In this document: positions 25,065 to 33,578 of the stretch, in pieces | Position numbering within the stretch: the stretch's first letter is position 1 | Layout: every line of letters begins with the position of its first letter | NCBI GenBank assembly: GCA_018333535.1 | Contig: JAGXTA010000124.1 | Span: 1 to 33,731, forward strand | DNA length: 33,731 bases | DNA from: Deltaproteobacteria bacterium | GTDB taxonomy: Bacteria > Desulfobacterota > BSN033 > UBA1163 | Direction of reading: 5' to 3' | Made by a program: the position numbers and the translations under genes | Notes under the pieces: generated by a model | The model's database searches: none | The model's input: only the letters and a program-made list of their open reading frames with translations | What the model was told of the DNA's origin: nothing

Positions 25065-25547
25065 ATGGAGCTTAAGACGGAACGTATAGAGATCCCAGAA
25101 GGCTGTAATGTCATCTTTGGGCAGACCCACTTTGTTAAGACCGTGGAGGATCTCTTTGAGATCCTCATCGGAGCTGTTCCCGGCATTAAATTCGGGATCG
25201 GGTTCTGCGAGGCATCAGGGCATTGCCTTGTCCGGGGTGAGGGAAATGATGAAGCGCTCAAAGAGGCGGCCATGAAGAATGCCTTCAGAATTGGCGCCGG
25301 CCATAGTTTCATCATCCTTCTGAAAGATGCCTTCCCCATCAACATCCTCAATGCGGTGAAAATGTGTCAGGAGGTTTGCACCATCTACTGTGCCACGGCC
25401 AATCCTGTAGAGGTCATCTTGGCCCAGTCAGAACAGGGCAAAGGCGTGCTCGGCGTCATTGATGGCTCGTCTCCGAAAGGAATCGAAAAAGAGGACGGTG
25501 TGGCCTGGAGGAAGGAACTTCTGAGAAAATTTAAATACAAGTTGTGA
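25065..25547 (+). CDS. Adenosine-specific kinase family protein (DUF355)
   Basis: This 160-residue protein matches the DUF355/adenosine-specific kinase family, first known from hyperthermophilic archaea and also found in anaerobic bacteria. It contains the family's VIFGQTHFVKTVEDL and KFGIGFCEASGHCLVR segments, the AAMKNAFRIGAGHSF helix and the end VIDGSSPKGIEKEDGVAWRK. The family name comes from structural genomics and the physiological reaction is unsettled. AAAGGAGGAGAG lies before the ATG. It is the third gene of the run begun by the MerB-like gene, 72 bp after the YbaK gene. Confidence 0.85.
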   Translation: MELKTERIEIPEGCNVIFGQTHFVKTVEDLFEILIGAVPGIKFGIGFCEASGHCLVRGEGNDEALKEAAMKNAFRIGAGHSFIILLKDAFPINILNAVKMCQEVCTIYCATANPVEVILAQSEQGKGVLGVIDGSSPKGIEKEDGVAWRKELLRKFKYKL

Positions 25548-25659
25548 AGATAATACCGTATTTCCGATGCCTGGCACCAGACTCCTTAAGGGAAGAAAAT
25601 GCGAACCTGCCTTTTAGAGAATTCAATATTCCACCACTGAACGGCACATAGGAGACATG

Positions 25660-26607
25660 ATGGAGATTAAGTTTGAACCAAGGCCCATTTACCAAGCCCC
25701 AATAGCTGTCTTAAGACATCTCTATTATTACACAACCCAATATGGGTTATCAGTAAAGCAATTTACGGGAGCTCACTGGCGGTATTGGGAGGAGCTTCCC
25801 GAACGCCTTATCAAAGCAAGGGGAGACACTAAAACGCTCAATTCGATAATTTCGGAACTCAAAAAACTTGCCTCCGGATCAGAAGAAAGGCTCAAAAGAA
25901 GAAGAGCACAAATAAAAGAAGGGAAATGGGCTGAGAAGGAAATCGTGTTGGACGCACAATTGCTTTCTGTTCTCGGAGCACTCCCGGGCGAATTGCTTTC
26001 TTTGGGACTTAGGCATCTAACGGGGAATCCTAACATTCCCAGATCACTCCAGATCGTCGACCTTATTATGAAAAGCAACCAAGGTGAAGACACTGATTTT
26101 GTTGAACCAGATCTTTTGCTATTAGGAGGCAACCATCTTCTAATGGTAGAAGTAAAAACGCGGGGTGGAGCAGACAGCTCCCGCAGTTATCCACCCCATC
26201 AACTTCTAAATTATCTTCGCCTGGTATTAGAGTGTAAAAATTCTTGTGATGCCTCATCGCCAAGTGACTTCACACACTTGATGCTCATGCCGTCAACTGA
26301 CCCTAAGTGGTTGGAGAATCATTCGGAATGGGTTCTACAGAGCTGTGACGATGAAGGCAAGCTCAAAGTGAATCTATCAGCTCTAATAAACTCTGCAAGG
26401 AAAAAGCCCGGATACAACTGCCAACAACTCAAGCTTTTGGCGGTTGAGGTTCCTATCTATTATCGCTCCTGGGACCAACTGTATGAGGCATTCCGAATAG
26501 CTGCTGAGCAATTTGGTGACGAGCGAAACAATACGCATTGGGACAAAATAGTCCAAGAGATCGGAGTATTAAGCCAAAAAGCCGGGAAATACGCTCAAAA
26601 TAGATGA
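25660..26607 (+). CDS. Putative PD-(D/E)XK nuclease, accessory island
   Basis: This 315-residue protein has no family that I can name. The second ATG (25660) is chosen because GGAG ends 5 nt upstream. The middle carries a nuclease-like signature: PD at 150-151 (FVEPDLLLL), then E164-V-K166 (LLMVEVKTRG), the expected spacing of the PD-(D/E)XK fold. The N-terminal 130 residues are mostly helical. Its stop overlaps the next gene's start (ATGA), so they form one unit with the VRR-NUC-like gene, suggesting a two-part nuclease. Codon use is less GC-biased than in the core genes. Confidence 0.6.
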   Translation: MEIKFEPRPIYQAPIAVLRHLYYYTTQYGLSVKQFTGAHWRYWEELPERLIKARGDTKTLNSIISELKKLASGSEERLKRRRAQIKEGKWAEKEIVLDAQLLSVLGALPGELLSLGLRHLTGNPNIPRSLQIVDLIMKSNQGEDTDFVEPDLLLLGGNHLLMVEVKTRGGADSSRSYPPHQLLNYLRLVLECKNSCDASSPSDFTHLMLMPSTDPKWLENHSEWVLQSCDDEGKLKVNLSALINSARKKPGYNCQQLKLLAVEVPIYYRSWDQLYEAFRIAAEQFGDERNNTHWDKIVQEIGVLSQKAGKYAQNR

Positions 26608-27182
26608 AACACTTCGATTGGATGGCGGGGGTAGGCCTAACAATGGGCCAGTTGAAGGAAATAATATTCTATTATCCAAGTCAATGGGAAGAGTGTTTTC
26701 GGAGGAAAAAGCTGCTTGATCAATGGGTCGAGGAATTCCCCGAAGAATTCGACCTAACATCAGGCATGAGAGGTCATCGCTCTACAGACAGAGGCTTGTC
26801 CCTCCTTCCTCAGTATGCCCTTATGTATATTCTTCTGAAGGACCATGGTGTCCGATCTATTACTTGGTACAAAATTGCAAAGATAAAACCTGGTCGCGTG
26901 GACGCGCCAAAAATAGCAGCCCGCTGGGAGATAATGCGTAGGTGGATGGGAAGTGACCGATTCAACGCACTTCAGTCATCACTCGTTGCCAAGGGTTTTC
27001 GAGACATGAGAGGTGAACCTGACCTTTTCTGCTGGTACCCTACAACGGGTTGCTGGTTTTTCGCAGAAGCAAAAGGCAAGGGAGACTCAATCAAGCCAAT
27101 TCAGAGGAAGTGGTTCGACATCTGCTGGCAGACATTGGGGTACCATGTAGACATTAGGATCTATAGCTTGCTGCGGCGATAG
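26604..27182 (+). CDS. VRR-NUC-like nuclease domain protein, accessory island
   Basis: This 192-residue protein ends with a VRR-NUC-like signature: GEPDLF at 137-142, AEAKGKGD at 154-161, then Q167 and W170 (IQRKWFDICWQTLG). The family is a PD-(D/E)XK branch that includes phage and restriction nucleases and FAN1. The first 110 residues match nothing I know. It is translationally coupled to the preceding gene. An attC-like site starts 22 bp after its stop, so both could lie in one gene cassette. Confidence 0.7.
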   Translation: MKHFDWMAGVGLTMGQLKEIIFYYPSQWEECFRRKKLLDQWVEEFPEEFDLTSGMRGHRSTDRGLSLLPQYALMYILLKDHGVRSITWYKIAKIKPGRVDAPKIAARWEIMRRWMGSDRFNALQSSLVAKGFRDMRGEPDLFCWYPTTGCWFFAEAKGKGDSIKPIQRKWFDICWQTLGYHVDIRIYSLLRR

Positions 27183-27203
27183 AACTAAAAAGGCTAAGGG
27201 GCT

Positions 27204-27262
27204 GCGCAACCAAGCGGCCAGAGCGGACGGCGTATAGGCGCCGCTGACTTTGAACGTTTCGC
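27204..27262 (+). other. attC-like recombination site 1
   Basis: The 59-bp site has ends GCGCAAC (27204-27210) and GTTTCGC (27256-27262) that pair at 6 of 7 positions, as R'' and R' boxes do. It has an inner pair AGCGG/CCGCT with CTGAC after it, and AACGTT at the right. A 37-bp part (27222-27258) aligns without gaps to attC-like site 2 with 26 identities; differences cluster in the loop and spacer. The R' box departs from the GTTRRRY consensus. Confidence 0.55.
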
Positions 27263-27270
27263 CATAGAAT

Positions 27271-28233
27271 ATGAATCTATTCACTTCAACCCAGCGCATG
27301 GCCGAAGGGTCGGTAGAGGACCACCTAACCGAGTTTATTGCCGCATCTCTGACCCTAAGTCATTCTTTTCGGGATGGATTCGCAGAAATTCTGCTCGCCA
27401 ATTGTCCATTTGCTCCAATTACGGCAGTTGAAACACAGGTCAATTATCCACATGGATGTTGCCCTGATATGCGCCTAACCCTTTCGGATGGCAGGGTAAT
27501 ACTGTGCGAGAACAAAATTGAAGCAGTCGAAACTCCAGGAAAAGACCCTACCAGGGGTCAACTTGAACGATATTTGGAGCTACCAGTTGATGGCGTGGCC
27601 TATATTCGAGGTTCGTGGAAACCGCCCGCGCCGAAAGTCCTTGATCATCTGAAATATATCAAGCCAGTCAACAGAGAACATTTCCTATGGAGAGATTTCT
27701 ATACTCTACTGCAGGGTGATGTGTTTCTTGAATGGCTCAGACAAGGTTTCGAGGGCATGGGATACACTCCACCATTATCCTCAATCGGTGACCTTAGCGA
27801 CCCCAACAGGGACAAAAAGCTGGCCAATCAGAAGGAGTTTGCAAAGCTATGGTTGTTGACTCGCTCCAATCTAAAACAGATGGGGTGGCGCACGCAGACA
27901 GGATCAAGAATTGAGCTCTATCTTTACAACGATTCCAGCAATATGTCGCAACAAATTTTCATATCCCCTTATCTGGCAGAGAGATTTCTCGTCCGTGTTA
28001 CTCCACGCCCAGGTCGCCTACGGGATGTCTTCGATGCATTAAAGCCCGTATCAACGTCAATGTCTGTCCAACCAACAGTGGAGGTCCATAGAATCATGAG
28101 GAAAAACGGCCTCACTGAAGTTGTGGACATCCAGACATCGCTTTTCAATGTCCTTCGTAGTGCAAGCACAGCGGAGGAGATGGAACAAGCTTTGTGGAGT
28201 TTCGTAAGTGCATTTTTGAAGAAAATAGAATAG
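27271..28233 (+). CDS. Putative PD-(D/E)XK nuclease between two attC-like sites
   Basis: This 320-residue protein has a nuclease motif near its N-terminus: E17 (SVEDHLTEF), PD at 65-66 (CCPDMRLTL), E80-N-K82 (VILCENKIEA) and QLERYL at 97-102, the pattern of PD-(D/E)XK family members. The C-terminal 180 residues include a region rich in aromatic residues and could recognise a substrate; I do not recognise it. An ATG at 27298 is an alternative start, as no clear ribosome site precedes 27271. It begins 8 bp after attC-like site 1, and its stop lies inside site 2, the layout of an integron cassette. Confidence 0.65.
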   Translation: MNLFTSTQRMAEGSVEDHLTEFIAASLTLSHSFRDGFAEILLANCPFAPITAVETQVNYPHGCCPDMRLTLSDGRVILCENKIEAVETPGKDPTRGQLERYLELPVDGVAYIRGSWKPPAPKVLDHLKYIKPVNREHFLWRDFYTLLQGDVFLEWLRQGFEGMGYTPPLSSIGDLSDPNRDKKLANQKEFAKLWLLTRSNLKQMGWRTQTGSRIELYLYNDSSNMSQQIFISPYLAERFLVRVTPRPGRLRDVFDALKPVSTSMSVQPTVEVHRIMRKNGLTEVVDIQTSLFNVLRSASTAEEMEQALWSFVSAFLKKIE

Positions 28234-28293
28234 TGGCGGGCAAATCACTCCAGCGGATGTCTAATAGCCACCGCTGACCCAAATCGTTATTCT
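28227..28293 (+). other. attC-like recombination site 2
   Basis: The outer ends AGAATA (28227-28232) and TATTCT (28288-28293) pair. The inner CAGCGG and CCGCTG form a perfect 6-bp stem. The core 28252-28288 has the same length as in site 1 and keeps AGCGGA, ATAG, CCGCTGAC and CGTT. No integrase gene is in the window. Confidence 0.5.
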
Positions 28294-28500: not shown

Positions 28501-28742
28501 ATGGCAAGCAAGAAAACATACAGCCAAGCCGCCAGAGTCCAAGGAATCCTGAGAACCCTTGGAGCAAGGCAAGGAATCACCCCATCGGCGAATTAACTGA
28601 AGAATTTGGTGTCACAAGGAGAACCCTTTATCGGGATCTTAAGGCATTAGAGGAGGCAGGCTACCCCATCCTGTCGGAGGTAATTGATGGAACAACCTAC
28701 TGGAAACTTGAGGCAATACCCGCCCATCAAGTAAGAACATAA
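28501..28742 (+). pseudogene. Frameshifted HTH transcriptional regulator
   Basis: The frame from ATG 28501 (MASKKTYSQAARVQGILRTL) stops at TAA after GITPSAN. In the -1 frame the sequence continues as GELTEEFGVTRRTLYRDLKA, then LEEAGYPIL, to TAA 28740-28742. Joined, this is an about 80-residue DeoR/WYL-type winged helix-turn-helix protein without an effector domain. The break lies in a CCCC run near 28585, so a single C has probably been lost. It may be a natural mutation, a phase-variable run or an assembly error. The stop is directly before the ATG at 28743. Confidence 0.6.
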
Positions 28743-28745
28743 ATG

Positions 28746-28777
28746 TTGTTGACAAATCTGTCAACAAATAATAACAT
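28746..28777 (+). promoter_or_regulatory. Palindromic operator overlapping a promoter for the methyltransferase
   Basis: TTGTTGACA (28746-28754) and TGTCAACAA (28759-28767) form a perfect 9-bp inverted repeat with a 4-bp centre. A -35 box TTGACA (28749-28754) is inside it, and TAACAT (28772-28777) follows after 17 bp. The start of transcription would be near 28784, next to the ATG at 28785. This resembles the autoregulated promoters of restriction-modification controller (C) proteins. Confidence 0.65.
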
Positions 28778-28784
28778 TGGAAAC

Positions 28785-31274
28785 ATGAAGTTCGGCAATT
28801 ATATTCGTCGTTATAGACAAGACGCTGGTATATCGCTTCGAGAATTGGCGGAGATTGGTCAAATCAATCCGGCCTATCTTTCTCGTGTGGAACGTGGAAT
28901 CGTCCCACCCTCGGATGCATTCATACGTTCGGTTGCCGATGCTTTGAAGATAGATCCTGAGAGCCTATTTCTCCTGGCCGGGCGTGTGCCTGCAAATTGG
29001 CAAAAGGCTATATCTGACTCACCCTCCCGAATTGCCGAGACTTTCCGCAGCGTTCTCGATAGCTATGTTGCCGAACCGAAGAGTCCCTACGGCAGAACCC
29101 TACTTTCCTTTGGAGGGGTTCGGGCTATCGAAGATCCTGCTTTTCCATTTGAATACTTTAGTGACATCGCAGAACTTGAAAGCTGGCGGAAGGAGGTCTA
29201 CCGTCCCATTTATCACATCCACAAGTGGTGGGCCCAAAGGCTCGGCTCGGTCTTCCGGGCCATCATCATAGGCGCGTTCGCTCCCAAAGGGTCAAATGTC
29301 TTTGAAATGTTCTATCAGCCCGTGAGATTAACTGGAGCTGTTATCTTCGACCCCTTCATGGGAAGCGGCACCACCATCGGCGAAGCCCTCAAGCTTGGCG
29401 CTCGCTCTATTGGTCGTGACATCAACCCCGTATCCCATTTTATTGTGAAGAACGCCCTGGGTATCCATCCCCGCGAAAAAGTCATTGAGACCTTTCGAGC
29501 CATTGAACGAGACGTCGCCCCTGCTATTCGCCGCCTTTACCAGGCCCGTCTCCCCGAGGGAGGGATGGCAGATGTTCTCTATTATTTTTGGGTAAAGGTT
29601 GTTCCCTGCCCAAAGTGCGAGCGGATGGTGGACCTTTTCTCATCCTATGTATTTTCACAGCATGCCTACCCTGCCCGTAATCCAGAAGCGCATGCATTTT
29701 GTTTCAATTGTGGGGCTATCAATAAGATTCGTTACGACACTGAACTTTATAAATGTTCGGCTTGTGGCCTAGCCCAGAATCCACAGGTTGGACCTGCAAA
29801 GGGTGTGAACGCAGTTTGTCCGGGTTGTGGGCACAGCTTCCCAATTGCAAAAACTGTTCAGAAACACAAAGAGCCACCTGCACACCGCCTGTATGCAAAA
29901 ATGGTCATACGACCGAATGGCTCAAAGGAGTATCTGCCAATCGATGATTTTGATCTGCACCTATATCAAGAGGCTTCTCACACTCTCAGAAAACGGAAGA
30001 AGGCTTATCCTGTTGTCTCGATCGAAGAAGGCTATAACACCAATCAAGTCCTCAATTATTGCTATCAATACTGGCATCAAATGTTCAATGACCGTCAACT
30101 ACTTTGCTTAAGCCTTCTTGTAGACCGCATTCGGAAAATACCCGACCGGAGGTTGCGGGATCTTTTCACTTGCCTCTTCTCCGGTACTCTTGAATTCAAT
30201 AATATGTTCACTTCGTTCAAAGGAGAAGGCACTGGCGCCGTCCGCCACATGTTTTCTCACCACATCCTCAAGCCAGAGCGAACGCCTTTGGAGGCAAATC
30301 TTTGGGGGACGCCTAAGAGTTCTGGCGCTTTTTCCACACTCTTTGAAAGCCGTCTCCTCAGGGCTCTTGATTACTGTGAAAACCCCTTTGAAATCAGTTT
30401 AACAAACAACAATGGAAAGACCGCCGGGAAGAAGGTATATAGTCTCTCTTGTCCGTTGGGTACGGACATGGCAGAAACTTTTGATGAGTTCCAAGGAGGT
30501 AAGGAGTTCTACCTCTCTTGCGGTGATTCGGCAAAAACTGACTTTGCAACAGAAAGTGTAGACGCAGTTGTTACAGACCCTCCTTTTTTTGACAACGTGC
30601 ATTATTCACAGCTTGCCGATTTCTTTTATGTCTGGCAGCGCCATGTCCTCGGAGGGAATGGCAACCATAATGCCAAAAGCACTCGTTCTGAGGAAGAGGT
30701 TCAACAAAGTGATCCAACGATCTTCACCGAACGCCTTTATGGTGTATGGAAGGAATGCAATCGAGTTCTCCGGCGTGAGGGGCTTCTCATATTCACCTAC
30801 CATCATTCTCGAAATGAAGGGTGGCGTTCAGTGTTAGAAGCAATTGTCAGGGCCGGTTTTACAATCGCTGCGACTCATCCGATCAAGGCAGAGATGTCAG
30901 TGGCCAAGCCAAAGTTTCAAGCCAAGGAACCTATTGACCTGGACATAATTATTGTTTGCCGAAAACGAGAGGCCGCTTCAACTGAGGCGTCAGATTTCAA
31001 AAGTATCATTAGAAAAGCAACCCAGGAAGCTACCGAGCAGATCGCTCGCTTCAATGCATCAGGCAGGTCCTTAAGTCGGAACGATGTTTATGTAGTTTTA
31101 ATGTCCCAGGTCATCAAGTGGTTGTCCTTGCAACCGTCTCTCCATGAAAGCCTGAGCTTTCTCGACTCAAGCCATGCATCGATTGAAAGAGCTATTAGCG
31201 ATCTACATGGGAGGCAACGAATAGCCGAGCGGCCTCTCAGCAAGCAATCAAAACAACTCACCCTCTGGTGAACA
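28785..31274 (+). CDS. DNA methyltransferase fused to an N-terminal XRE-type regulator domain
   Basis: I choose ATG 28785 (828 residues): the frame is open from 28743, but a promoter lies in between. An XRE/Cro helix-turn-helix domain at about 2-67 (YIRRYRQDAGISLRELAEIG) precedes a large methyltransferase of the COG1743/DUF1156-like sort. Motifs are a KWWAQR element, the S-adenosylmethionine motif DPFMGSGTT (about 189-197) and the catalytic DPPFFDN (598-604), 400 residues later. Four CxxC pairs (about 275-348) form zinc ribbons. It probably methylates adenine or cytosine amino groups in a specific site, with the HTH domain controlling its own synthesis. The nearest partner is the convergent nuclease-like gene at 31459-32388. 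It ends TGGTGA; the stop is at 31269-31271. Confidence 0.85.
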
Positions 31275-31324: not shown

Positions 31325-31463
31325 ATTAGTGTCTGTTTATAAATTGCCCCCTCAATCAGAATCGTCATTCCGGCGAAAGCCGGAATCCAGTCCTTTCAAG
31401 GCCTTCTGGATGCCGGATCAAGTCCGGCATGACGGAAGAAGACATTTATAAACAGATACTAAT
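31325..31463. mobile_element. 139-bp miniature element with IS-related terminal repeats
   Basis: The ends ATTAGTGTCTGTTTATAAA (31325-31343) and TTTATAAACAGATACTAAT (31445-31463) are 19-bp inverted repeats with one mismatch and match the IS end at 227-245. The interior is a large palindrome, GTCATTCCGGCGAAAGCCGG followed by its counterpart ending CCGGCATGACG, of a kind widespread in bacterial intergenic DNA. It has no coding capacity. Confidence 0.75.
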
Positions 31464-32388
31464 GAGGAGGTTGAAAATTCAATCGAAATCGACCACGGGG
31501 CTGTGTTTTTTCTGTTCTGGCAGGCAAAGGAAAAGGGTCCAAGAGTTCAAATTGTCTATGATCTTTAGGAATATCATCGGCAAGGCGATAACAATAAAAT
31601 GTGTTTGTACCCCCTTGCTGTATTGTTCTCTTTATTAATCCCACCTGTCGAAGTTGTGAAACGTTTTTCTCCAGATCATCTCTGGAATGAATCAAGGTAA
31701 CACTATGATCGAGCTGTAGGGTACTCAGTGGGTTTGAAAAAATCAGCATGGGGCGAGTACGATTAGCCCCGTTACCATAGGTTCCAAGACCAATCTCTTT
31801 AGCTCTTTCTCCAACAATCGATAAGTAGTAATTGAAGTCCTCGTTCAGAAGGTTGCCGTCACACAAAACCAAAGACGATAGCTGATATTTACCTGATTGA
31901 TTGCGAACTGCCTCTTGGCACACAAAAAGATAGAACCCACGAATGTCTAACACGGCCCCGCTTGAATCGTAAACGCGAACCGTGCCACAAGGTGGGGTAG
32001 TATTGTAATCCATACCTGATGGTCTGGCTATTGCGCCACTTTGGGTCCTCTCGAGCTTCTTTACCTCTATTGCCACAATATGTGTCAGGTTTGAAGACAA
32101 AGTTACTCTTGCAGCCCTCTTACAGACTTCCGGTCGTAGGACAACCAAGTCAGGGGTTATAAGAGGTCCAGGTGCTTTCACACAATCAACATCGGTGGGG
32201 AATTGATCTGAAAGCAGTCTGTGAATATATTCATCCAAGGGATCATCTTGAGTATTTCGCTTATCACGAAGGCGAAAGGGTCTTGGCTTTCCATTTTTTC
32301 CAAAGAAAGAACTTCGAAGGATCAGGAATGATTCCATTGTCAAATCAGTCATTTTCGACCTTTTGAGAATACGTAACATTTCAGACAT
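31459..32388 (-). CDS. Putative type II-like restriction endonuclease, PD-(D/E)XK
   Basis: This 309-residue protein has a nuclease signature: PD at 79-80 (LITPDLVVL) and E108-V-K110 (HIVAIEVKKLE), followed by the unusual segment SGMDYNTTPPCGTVRVYDS (about 124-142). The rest is not recognised. It is convergent with the methyltransferase gene, with only a miniature element between them, which suggests a restriction-modification pair; specificity cannot be read. The stop TAG is supplied by the miniature element's end (31459-31461), so the original C-terminus may be altered. The start is ATG 32388, with AAGG upstream. Confidence 0.65.
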   Translation of the reverse strand: MSEMLRILKRSKMTDLTMESFLILRSSFFGKNGKPRPFRLRDKRNTQDDPLDEYIHRLLSDQFPTDVDCVKAPGPLITPDLVVLRPEVCKRAARVTLSSNLTHIVAIEVKKLERTQSGAIARPSGMDYNTTPPCGTVRVYDSSGAVLDIRGFYLFVCQEAVRNQSGKYQLSSLVLCDGNLLNEDFNYYLSIVGERAKEIGLGTYGNGANRTRPMLIFSNPLSTLQLDHSVTLIHSRDDLEKNVSQLRQVGLIKRTIQQGGTNTFYCYRLADDIPKDHRQFELLDPFPLPARTEKTQPRGRFRLNFQPPH

Positions 32389-32442
32389 CAATAACCTTTT
32401 TCAACAATTAGAACAAATAATTGCTGGAATCACCGATGGAGA

Positions 32443-33435
32443 TTAGCTTCCGTTTTTCACCAGACATTCCAGGGCCGTGATATATTCCTCGGTCATGCAG
32501 GTGGGGATTCGATGTTTCTGTAAGCATTCAAAGCATTTGCTGGGTTCGTAGAGAGGCGTGCTCACATATTTCTCTCCGCCATCCGGAAAGACGGTGACCA
32601 TTACGCCACGATCCAACTCCATTGCCTTCTGCAAGGTCCCCCACATGGCCGCACCGGAGCTGATTCCGCAGAAGATTCCCTCGCGGATGGTGAGGGCCCT
32701 TGCCATCTCGAAGGCATCTTCATCCGTCACATTGATCTTCTCGTCCAGTCGATTGGGATCATAAATCTCGGGGACATACTGGGAATCGAGGTTCTTTAAT
32801 CCTTGAATCTTCGAATTGGGATAGGGTTCCACGCCGACGATCTTGATGCCGGGATTATATTCCTTGAGCCTTTTGGAAACACCCATCAGAGTTCCGGTTG
32901 TCCCCAGGCCTGCGACAAACATCTTGACCTTCCCTTTTGTCGCTTTCCAGATCTCTTCGCCCGTTGTCTCATAATGGGCGAGCACATTATACTTATTCTC
33001 GAACTGATGGGGCATATAATATTTTGGGCCCTGCGCCATCTCTTCGGCCAAATCAATCGCCCCATCCATCCCCTTCGGGCCTGGACTTAAGATGATCTTT
33101 GCCCCAAAAGCAGTGATGATCTTTCGTCTTTCGATGCTCATTGTCTCCGGCATCACCAATTCCAATCGATATCTCTTCACAGCGCAGACCATTGCCAGAG
33201 CAATGCCCGTATTCCCACTGGTAGGTTCGATAACGATCTTATCTTTTGTAAGGAGACCTTCCCTCTCTCCATATTCGATCATATACTTTGCGATCCGGTC
33301 TTTGACAGAACCCGCCGGGTTATACCGTTCCAGCTTCGCATAGACCTTCACTTTTTTGTTGGGAACGATATGGTTGATCTTCACCAAAGGAGTGTACCCA
33401 ACCAAATCGACCATATCTTTGGCTACCCGATACAT
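32443..33435 (-). CDS. Cysteine synthase family protein (PLP-dependent)
   Basis: This 330-residue enzyme of the CysK/CBS fold makes cysteine from O-acetylserine or a related substrate and sulfide. K45 in NPAGSVKDR holds pyridoxal phosphate, TSGNTG is at 72-77, and GLGTTGT is the phosphate-binding glycine loop. I choose the ATG at 33435 (AAGGAGG upstream) over the longer frame. The C-terminal tail is unusual: CxxC at 301-304 plus C313 and C324, with CFECLQKHRIPTC. Such a tail could bind a metal or sense redox state. It lies just outside the accessory island. Confidence 0.88.
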   Translation of the reverse strand: MYRVAKDMVDLVGYTPLVKINHIVPNKKVKVYAKLERYNPAGSVKDRIAKYMIEYGEREGLLTKDKIVIEPTSGNTGIALAMVCAVKRYRLELVMPETMSIERRKIITAFGAKIILSPGPKGMDGAIDLAEEMAQGPKYYMPHQFENKYNVLAHYETTGEEIWKATKGKVKMFVAGLGTTGTLMGVSKRLKEYNPGIKIVGVEPYPNSKIQGLKNLDSQYVPEIYDPNRLDEKINVTDEDAFEMARALTIREGIFCGISSGAAMWGTLQKAMELDRGVMVTVFPDGGEKYVSTPLYEPSKCFECLQKHRIPTCMTEEYITALECLVKNGS

Positions 33436-33578
33436 TGTTATTTCCGCCTCCTTAAAATAAAAGTCTACGGTCAAATGGTCAGGGTAAAGATGCCGGTTTG
33501 GTTAAGGGGTTATGTTGTTGGTCTTTAAATCATAACCCATTGACCTAACCTAAACGGGCCTCCTTACCTTAACCCAAA

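Follow-up and report, generated by a model that had tools for sequence, protein, structure and literature searches.

Organization of the locus

The window analysed here is the entire contig JAGXTA010000124.1 (C124, 33,731 nucleotides) of a deltaproteobacterium from a poorly studied bacterial lineage. The host genome comprises 4.39 Mb in 192 contigs and is 97.2% complete. Towards the right end of the window, two related imperfect palindromes, each placed just after a stop codon, bracket a gene for a probable nuclease of the PD-(D/E)XK type (Table 1). A first-pass annotation, made from the DNA letters alone, had proposed a possible integron cassette without an integrase. We regard both repeats, with little doubt, as genuine integron recombination sites (attC), and the DNA between them as very probably one complete integron gene cassette carrying the nuclease gene. 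With the repeats read as attC, the stretch amounts to a few mobile gene cassettes grouped together on the chromosome, far from any integron integrase. The locus is a two-site CALIN (a cluster of attC sites lacking an integrase): two sites found with a clade-specific covariance model are clustered about 1 kb apart, where a CALIN has at least two clustered sites and no nearby intI, and no integron integrase (IntI) match is present on the contig. Structures of this kind are already known; here one is found with nuclease-type genes.

Table 1. Features of the attC locus and related sites (positions in the window unless a locus handle, L, is given)
Feature	Position	Strand	Remarks
attC site 1	27203..27263	+	R'' TGCGCAAC, L'' AGCGG + extra A, L' CCGCT, R' GTTTCGCC; 28.4 bits
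attC site 1 crossover	G|TT at 27256/27257	+	
attC site 2	28239..28293	+	inner stem CAGCGG(A)/CCGCTG, R' GTTATTCT; 31.1 bits
attC site 2 crossover	28286/28287	+	
Alternative outer arm of site 2, AGAATAGT	~28225-28233	+	
Complete gene cassette (very probable)	27257..28286	+	1,030 bp crossover to crossover; spacing of both GTT boxes, one same-strand open reading frame
Cassette gene, 320 aa, probable PD-(D/E)XK nuclease with second C-terminal domain	27271..28233	+	motif CCPDM...CENK, structure model
VRR-NUC domain gene, 192 aa	26604..27182	+	Pfam PF08774, 23.9 bits (cut-off 23.8)
Open reading frame, 316 aa, overlapping VRR-NUC gene start	25657..26607	+	PADLOC PDC-M15A, E 1.1e-4, weak match to a candidate defence family
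Candidate left boundary of preceding cassette, GTTGTGAA, over kinase stop codon	25541..25548	+	uncertain
Adenosine-specific kinase gene, left flank	25065..25547	+	Pfam PF04008, 251 bits
Helix-turn-helix and DNA methyltransferase gene, 842 aa, right neighbour	28743..31271	+	Pfam N6_N4_Mtase + HTH; no attC behind
Open reading frame, 310 aa, convergent with methyltransferase gene	31459..32391	-	conserved partner of the module, common to G009 and G015
Cysteine synthase-like gene, right flank	32443..33474	-	orthologues in the order
Solitary attC behind complete type II restriction-modification genes	L155 3986-4044, L159 4077-4136, L042 9483-9541		host contigs C49, C45, C91

Sequence and folding of the two sites

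The two sites share a gapless 37-bp core (27222-27258 and 28252-28288) with 26 identities, exactly as first annotated. The pair was the top-ranked family in a repeat search of the window, and 26 identities were never reached in 200 dinucleotide shuffles of both flanking stretches (maximum 22, mean 17.7). The annotated pattern of conserved stem arms and divergent loops also holds, the inner arms reading AGCGGA / CCGCTGA. When aligned to the covariance model described below, both sites form a two-part imperfect palindrome of R''/R' and L''/L' arms with a spacer, in which the outer stem is weak in either site. Each carries a CGTT crossover box and an inner stem of the attC type with an extrahelical base in the L'' arm (AGCGG-A), which is aligned to the unpaired column of the model. 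Site 2 is moreover 86–90% identical, over 49 bp, to attC sites of three other genomes, namely G106, G014 (where the site adjoins a full-length intI gene) and G009.

The outer ends, described in the first pass as pairing, stand up only in part. Those of site 1 pair at 6 of 8 positions (TGCGCAAC / GTTTCGCC) and display the AAC (R'') and GTT (R') boxes. Site 2 has the GTT box and GGC instead of AAC; its outer ends AGAATAGT / GTTATTCT pair at all 8 positions, two of them by G-T pairing, once the register is moved by about 8 bases and not otherwise. The R'' arm of this site can also pair with the 5' end of the cassette itself (GTTTCGCC), leaving one base unpaired. The reported position directly after two stop codons was reproduced: site 1 begins 21 bases past the stop codon of the frame at 26604-27182, and site 2 begins 6 bases past that of the frame at 27271-28233, an overlap resulting when the AGAATAGT arm is included in the site.

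Covariance model and specificity

The attC assignment was examined independently with a covariance model (R1) built from 10 attC sites near intI genes of related genomes, with none from the host genome and the window excluded. The model describes the R''/R' stem and the L''/L' stem with its extra base. With filters off, it identified site 2 (E 7.1e-6) and site 1 (E 3.4e-5) as the sole significant attC matches in 33.7 kb, the third-best match scoring only 11.5 bits. A scan of the host genome for further sites, as the first pass had suggested, gave 34 matches at E <= 1; they are spread over 17 contigs, with arrays on C136, C167 and C192 among them. A simple pattern search found six further copies and was less informative than the model. 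Among 36 sites of the host genome, 14 of the 18 base pairs change on both sides, with a covariation score of 0.471 compared with 0.156 for shuffled and 0.06–0.11 for slid alignments, values that lean towards the model because the alignment was fitted to it. In a sample of 99 genomes of the phylum, 56 contained matches and 43 had none at E <= 0.01, so generic hairpins do not set the model off.

The bracketed cassette and its gene

The layout of a gene cassette, an open reading frame followed by its site, was borne out by the single same-strand frame in the 1,030 bp. This frame starts 14 bases past the crossover, ends 6 bases before site 2 and shares its strand with the attC sites. Searches of Pfam, PADLOC and NCBIfam gave no match for the 320-aa product. 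Its CCPDM...CENK motif corresponds to PD...(D/E)XK and is kept as PDM...CE(N/H)K in three full-length homologues. In the AlphaFold model (predicted local distance difference test score, pLDDT, 80), the N-terminal domain (residues ~13-162) has as structural neighbours SfsA (Z 7.0) and the restriction enzymes PaqCI (Z 6.2), MspJI (Z 5.6) and HindIII (Z 5.4), all with middling Z values; on this predicted structure, the neighbours appear consistent with the PD...ENK motif. The C-terminal domain matched Atg10 best (Z 10.4), followed by MotA-like, YbjN-like and secretion-chaperone folds (Z 5–8), and these matches were not used to assign a function.

Homologues of the protein, with 36–45% identity, were found in metagenome-assembled genomes (MAGs) of Mizugakiibacter, Methanosarcinales and Geobacter and in one other bacterium, and none in plasmids, viral contigs or solved-structure sequences. 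In the Mizugakiibacter MAG, the homologous gene starts just past an attC-like site (L131 5942-5992; 13.9 bits, E 0.06 with the same model, filters off), which is itself preceded by a small open reading frame and by part of an integron integrase that matches TIGR02249 at 175.7 bits over 150 aa. The placement of a homologue behind an attC-like site in an unrelated bacterium is evidence that this gene family travels in cassettes, and joins the covariance test and the near-identity of site 2 to intI-linked attC sites of a relative in upholding the first-pass assignment of the repeats to attC. No attC was matched near the homologues at L132-L134.

The preceding putative cassette

The VRR-NUC gene ahead of site 1 is the probable gene of a preceding cassette, and the frame that overlaps its start is possibly part of the same cassette. 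The latter has no homologue among 395 genomes of the phylum and none in viral contigs; homologues of the VRR-NUC protein were absent from plasmids. The left boundary suggested in Table 1, GTTGTGAA, gave the best pairing with R'' of site 1 among the GTT positions in 25501-26620. Elsewhere, a VRR-NUC homologue (L138 1486-2136, on C55 of genome G265) lies alone between frames resembling murG and murC, with no attC matched there.

Integrase genes

No TIGR02249 match was found on the contig, and the locus is thus no complete integron, in which intI and attI would lie beside the array. The host genome likewise contains no IntI match over the TIGR02249 cut-off, and only a broken intI: on C161 (L009 4848-7083), a truncated and frameshifted 3' fragment lies beside two weak attC matches, and this locus is a dead integron. 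The integrase absence proposed from the window alone is therefore upheld. Of 17 genomes from the family, 9 encode a full-length IntI above that cut-off, including several members of the host's own genus, and most of these intI genes have attC-like sites nearby.

Draft genomes inflate CALIN counts (PMC9024848), and the draft assembly could hide an intact or unassembled copy of intI. This caveat is smaller for the window locus, because 25 kb to its left and 5 kb to its right are assembled without intI.

Host interval and sister genomes

The cluster lies between the adenosine-specific kinase gene and a gene that we take to be cysteine synthase-like, a name given from sequence similarity and not from a family search. 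Relatives of both genes are found in 17/17 genomes of the order. The interval between them is near-empty in five genomes, in which the two genes are adjacent with gaps of 36–65 bp; in other genomes of the order it measures 0.7–7.3 kb and varies in content. The methyltransferase module is common to the host genome, G009 and G015, and includes the convergent 310-aa frame, for which no family match was found. Just before the methyltransferase gene, a short interrupted frame at 28502-28741 resembles a helix-turn-helix regulator (RRTLYRDLKALEEAG) and looks, by eye, like a remnant.

Among the intervals examined, attC sites occur only in the host genome and G009; G015 has the module without attC. The array of G009 (L111 1102-4253, on its contig C50) has four attC sites on the opposite strand and with different genes in the same interval. 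One of its cassettes matches, at 92.5–92.8% identity, a broken cassette that the host genome carries in its C192 array (L043 9705-10705), so the same cassette gene is found at different loci in two species.

Other attC sites in the genome

Solitary attC sites lie directly behind a methyltransferase–Bpu10I fusion gene, a BglII-like restriction-modification pair and a ThaI-like pair, in each case on the same strand (Table 1). Another follows a CopG antitoxin gene on the same strand (C148), and a further one is placed between an open reading frame and a TIR-domain gene. The genes of the arrays also include HNH, HSDR_N-like (just under the Pfam cut-off) and HEPN genes. The region around the CopG-linked site (L160 3400-5000) is filled with multicopy repeats common across the genus, which spoiled an empty-site comparison at this position. 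In a phylum genome assembled as a single contig (G053 C1), 25 attC matches were found, some clustered near 2.23–2.25 Mb and others scattered.

The first pass had also suggested that cassettes with PD-(D/E)XK genes would fit a mobile defence store. The solitary sites behind restriction-modification genes lend this idea circumstantial support, read from gene content; the defence reading is suggestive only, because the neighbouring genes were picked by eye, with no background rate.

Interpretation and origin of the cluster

Several observations weigh against reading the locus as a pair of mobile cassettes. Two outer positions of site 1 are mismatched, the R'' box of site 2 is degenerate in the canonical register, and both sites score in the lower half of the sites of their own genome. 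For the preceding cassette, the left edge is uncertain: the 24 bp just beyond GTTGTGAA are common to G015, which leaves the boundary at 25541 as a candidate only. Given its R'' box and shifted register, site 2 may be decayed, and its mobility is doubtful for the former reason. The genome yielded no intact IntI, so present activity is unproven.

Most likely, an integron integrase like those that sister species still encode in intact form inserted the cassettes, acting in trans. Such an enzyme would have bound attC as a folded bottom strand, on a cassette excised as a circle, and would then have joined the cassette at a G|TT target in the kinase–cysteine synthase interval, next to the methyltransferase module. 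These recombination events, the nature of the entry point (attG-like site, or integron platform since lost) and any defence role of the nucleases are inferred.

Chances are about even that the cassettes entered singly, through IntI, at a non-integron (attG-like) target by the kinase gene or the methyltransferase module, where an integron never stood. In favour of this route, the contig yielded no trace of an intI gene, solitary attC sites turn up across the genome, and the G009 array differs in both orientation and content. Insertion at attG sites is an established route, as Loot et al. 2024 is cited in PMC12901181. Against such entry, no exact junction was recovered relative to an empty site with the methyltransferase module already in place.

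Somewhat less probable is decay: the locus would be what is left of a once-complete integron, or of an array that came with the methyltransferase module, after deletion of the integrase end. A decayed intI is present elsewhere in this genome, on C161, and the module is present at both attC-bearing loci of the order; however, C124 gave no match to any part of intI, the module occurs in G015 with no attC, and the G009 array has the opposite orientation. No clean junction was recovered that would tell attG-type entry from a lost integron.

It is highly improbable that the repeats are ordinary palindromes behind genes (terminators or a family of the repetitive extragenic palindromic, REP, type): both are hairpin-capable and lie just past stop codons, and similar sites occur at many loci, but an Rfam search of the window matched only RNase P and one tRNA, the architecture is that of attC down to the extrahelical base and the CGTT box, and the likeness to intI-linked sites together with the specificity of the model led us to reject this explanation. 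Occurrence at many unrelated loci, which the first pass had named as grounds for abandoning the attC assignment, is literally the case; the other copies, however, are attC sites in arrays or directly behind same-strand genes, and such dispersal does not refute the assignment because attC sites behave in this way.

The attC reading can be extended to the whole genome, although we lean against this extension at present. The lineage may spread defence genes as single cassettes across the chromosome, outside integrons, with the kinase–cysteine synthase interval as a recurrent landing place; as part of the same conjecture, the genome might be a dispersed defence library that the integrase wrote at attG-like sites and that was left behind when intI decayed.

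Comparison with known systems

The locus shares with described CALINs (PMC9024848) two attC sites about 1 kb apart, the gene-then-attC layout and the lack of a nearby intI. Nothing essential differs, although the window locus is limited to two sites, of which one shows a decayed R'' box, and the orthologous interval is near-empty in sister genomes. In Xanthomonas, CALINs recur at loci beyond the integron platform (PMC12444791): cassette clusters occupy one chromosomal locus in more than one species, at a distance from intI, as observed here. In contrast to these, the window species and G009 carry different cassettes in opposite orientation, beside a methyltransferase module.

Insertion at attG is likewise an IntI route that places cassettes outside integrons. 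It was shown experimentally by Loot et al. 2024, as cited in PMC12901181 and PMC12444791, whereas at the window locus we infer it without an exact junction. Integrons of Vibrio and mobile integrons have been presented as anti-phage defence libraries (Darracq 2025, Getz 2025, Kieffer 2025, as cited in PMC12444791). The likeness lies in the nuclease and restriction-modification genes of the cassettes; the window cassettes, candidates for such a role, differ in lying outside an integron.

Taken together, a tentative reading has become a documented cassette cluster, in a lineage for which the literature searched yielded little on integrons. The locus provides a naturally occurring example of cassettes that sit, with no integrase, at a recurrent site. 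Together with the near-empty sister sites and the sister arrays, such loci offer material for asking how cassettes get outside integrons in nature. The family of the 320-aa cassette gene, a member of which lies downstream of an integron-integrase fragment in an unrelated bacterium, is a candidate to assay for defence.
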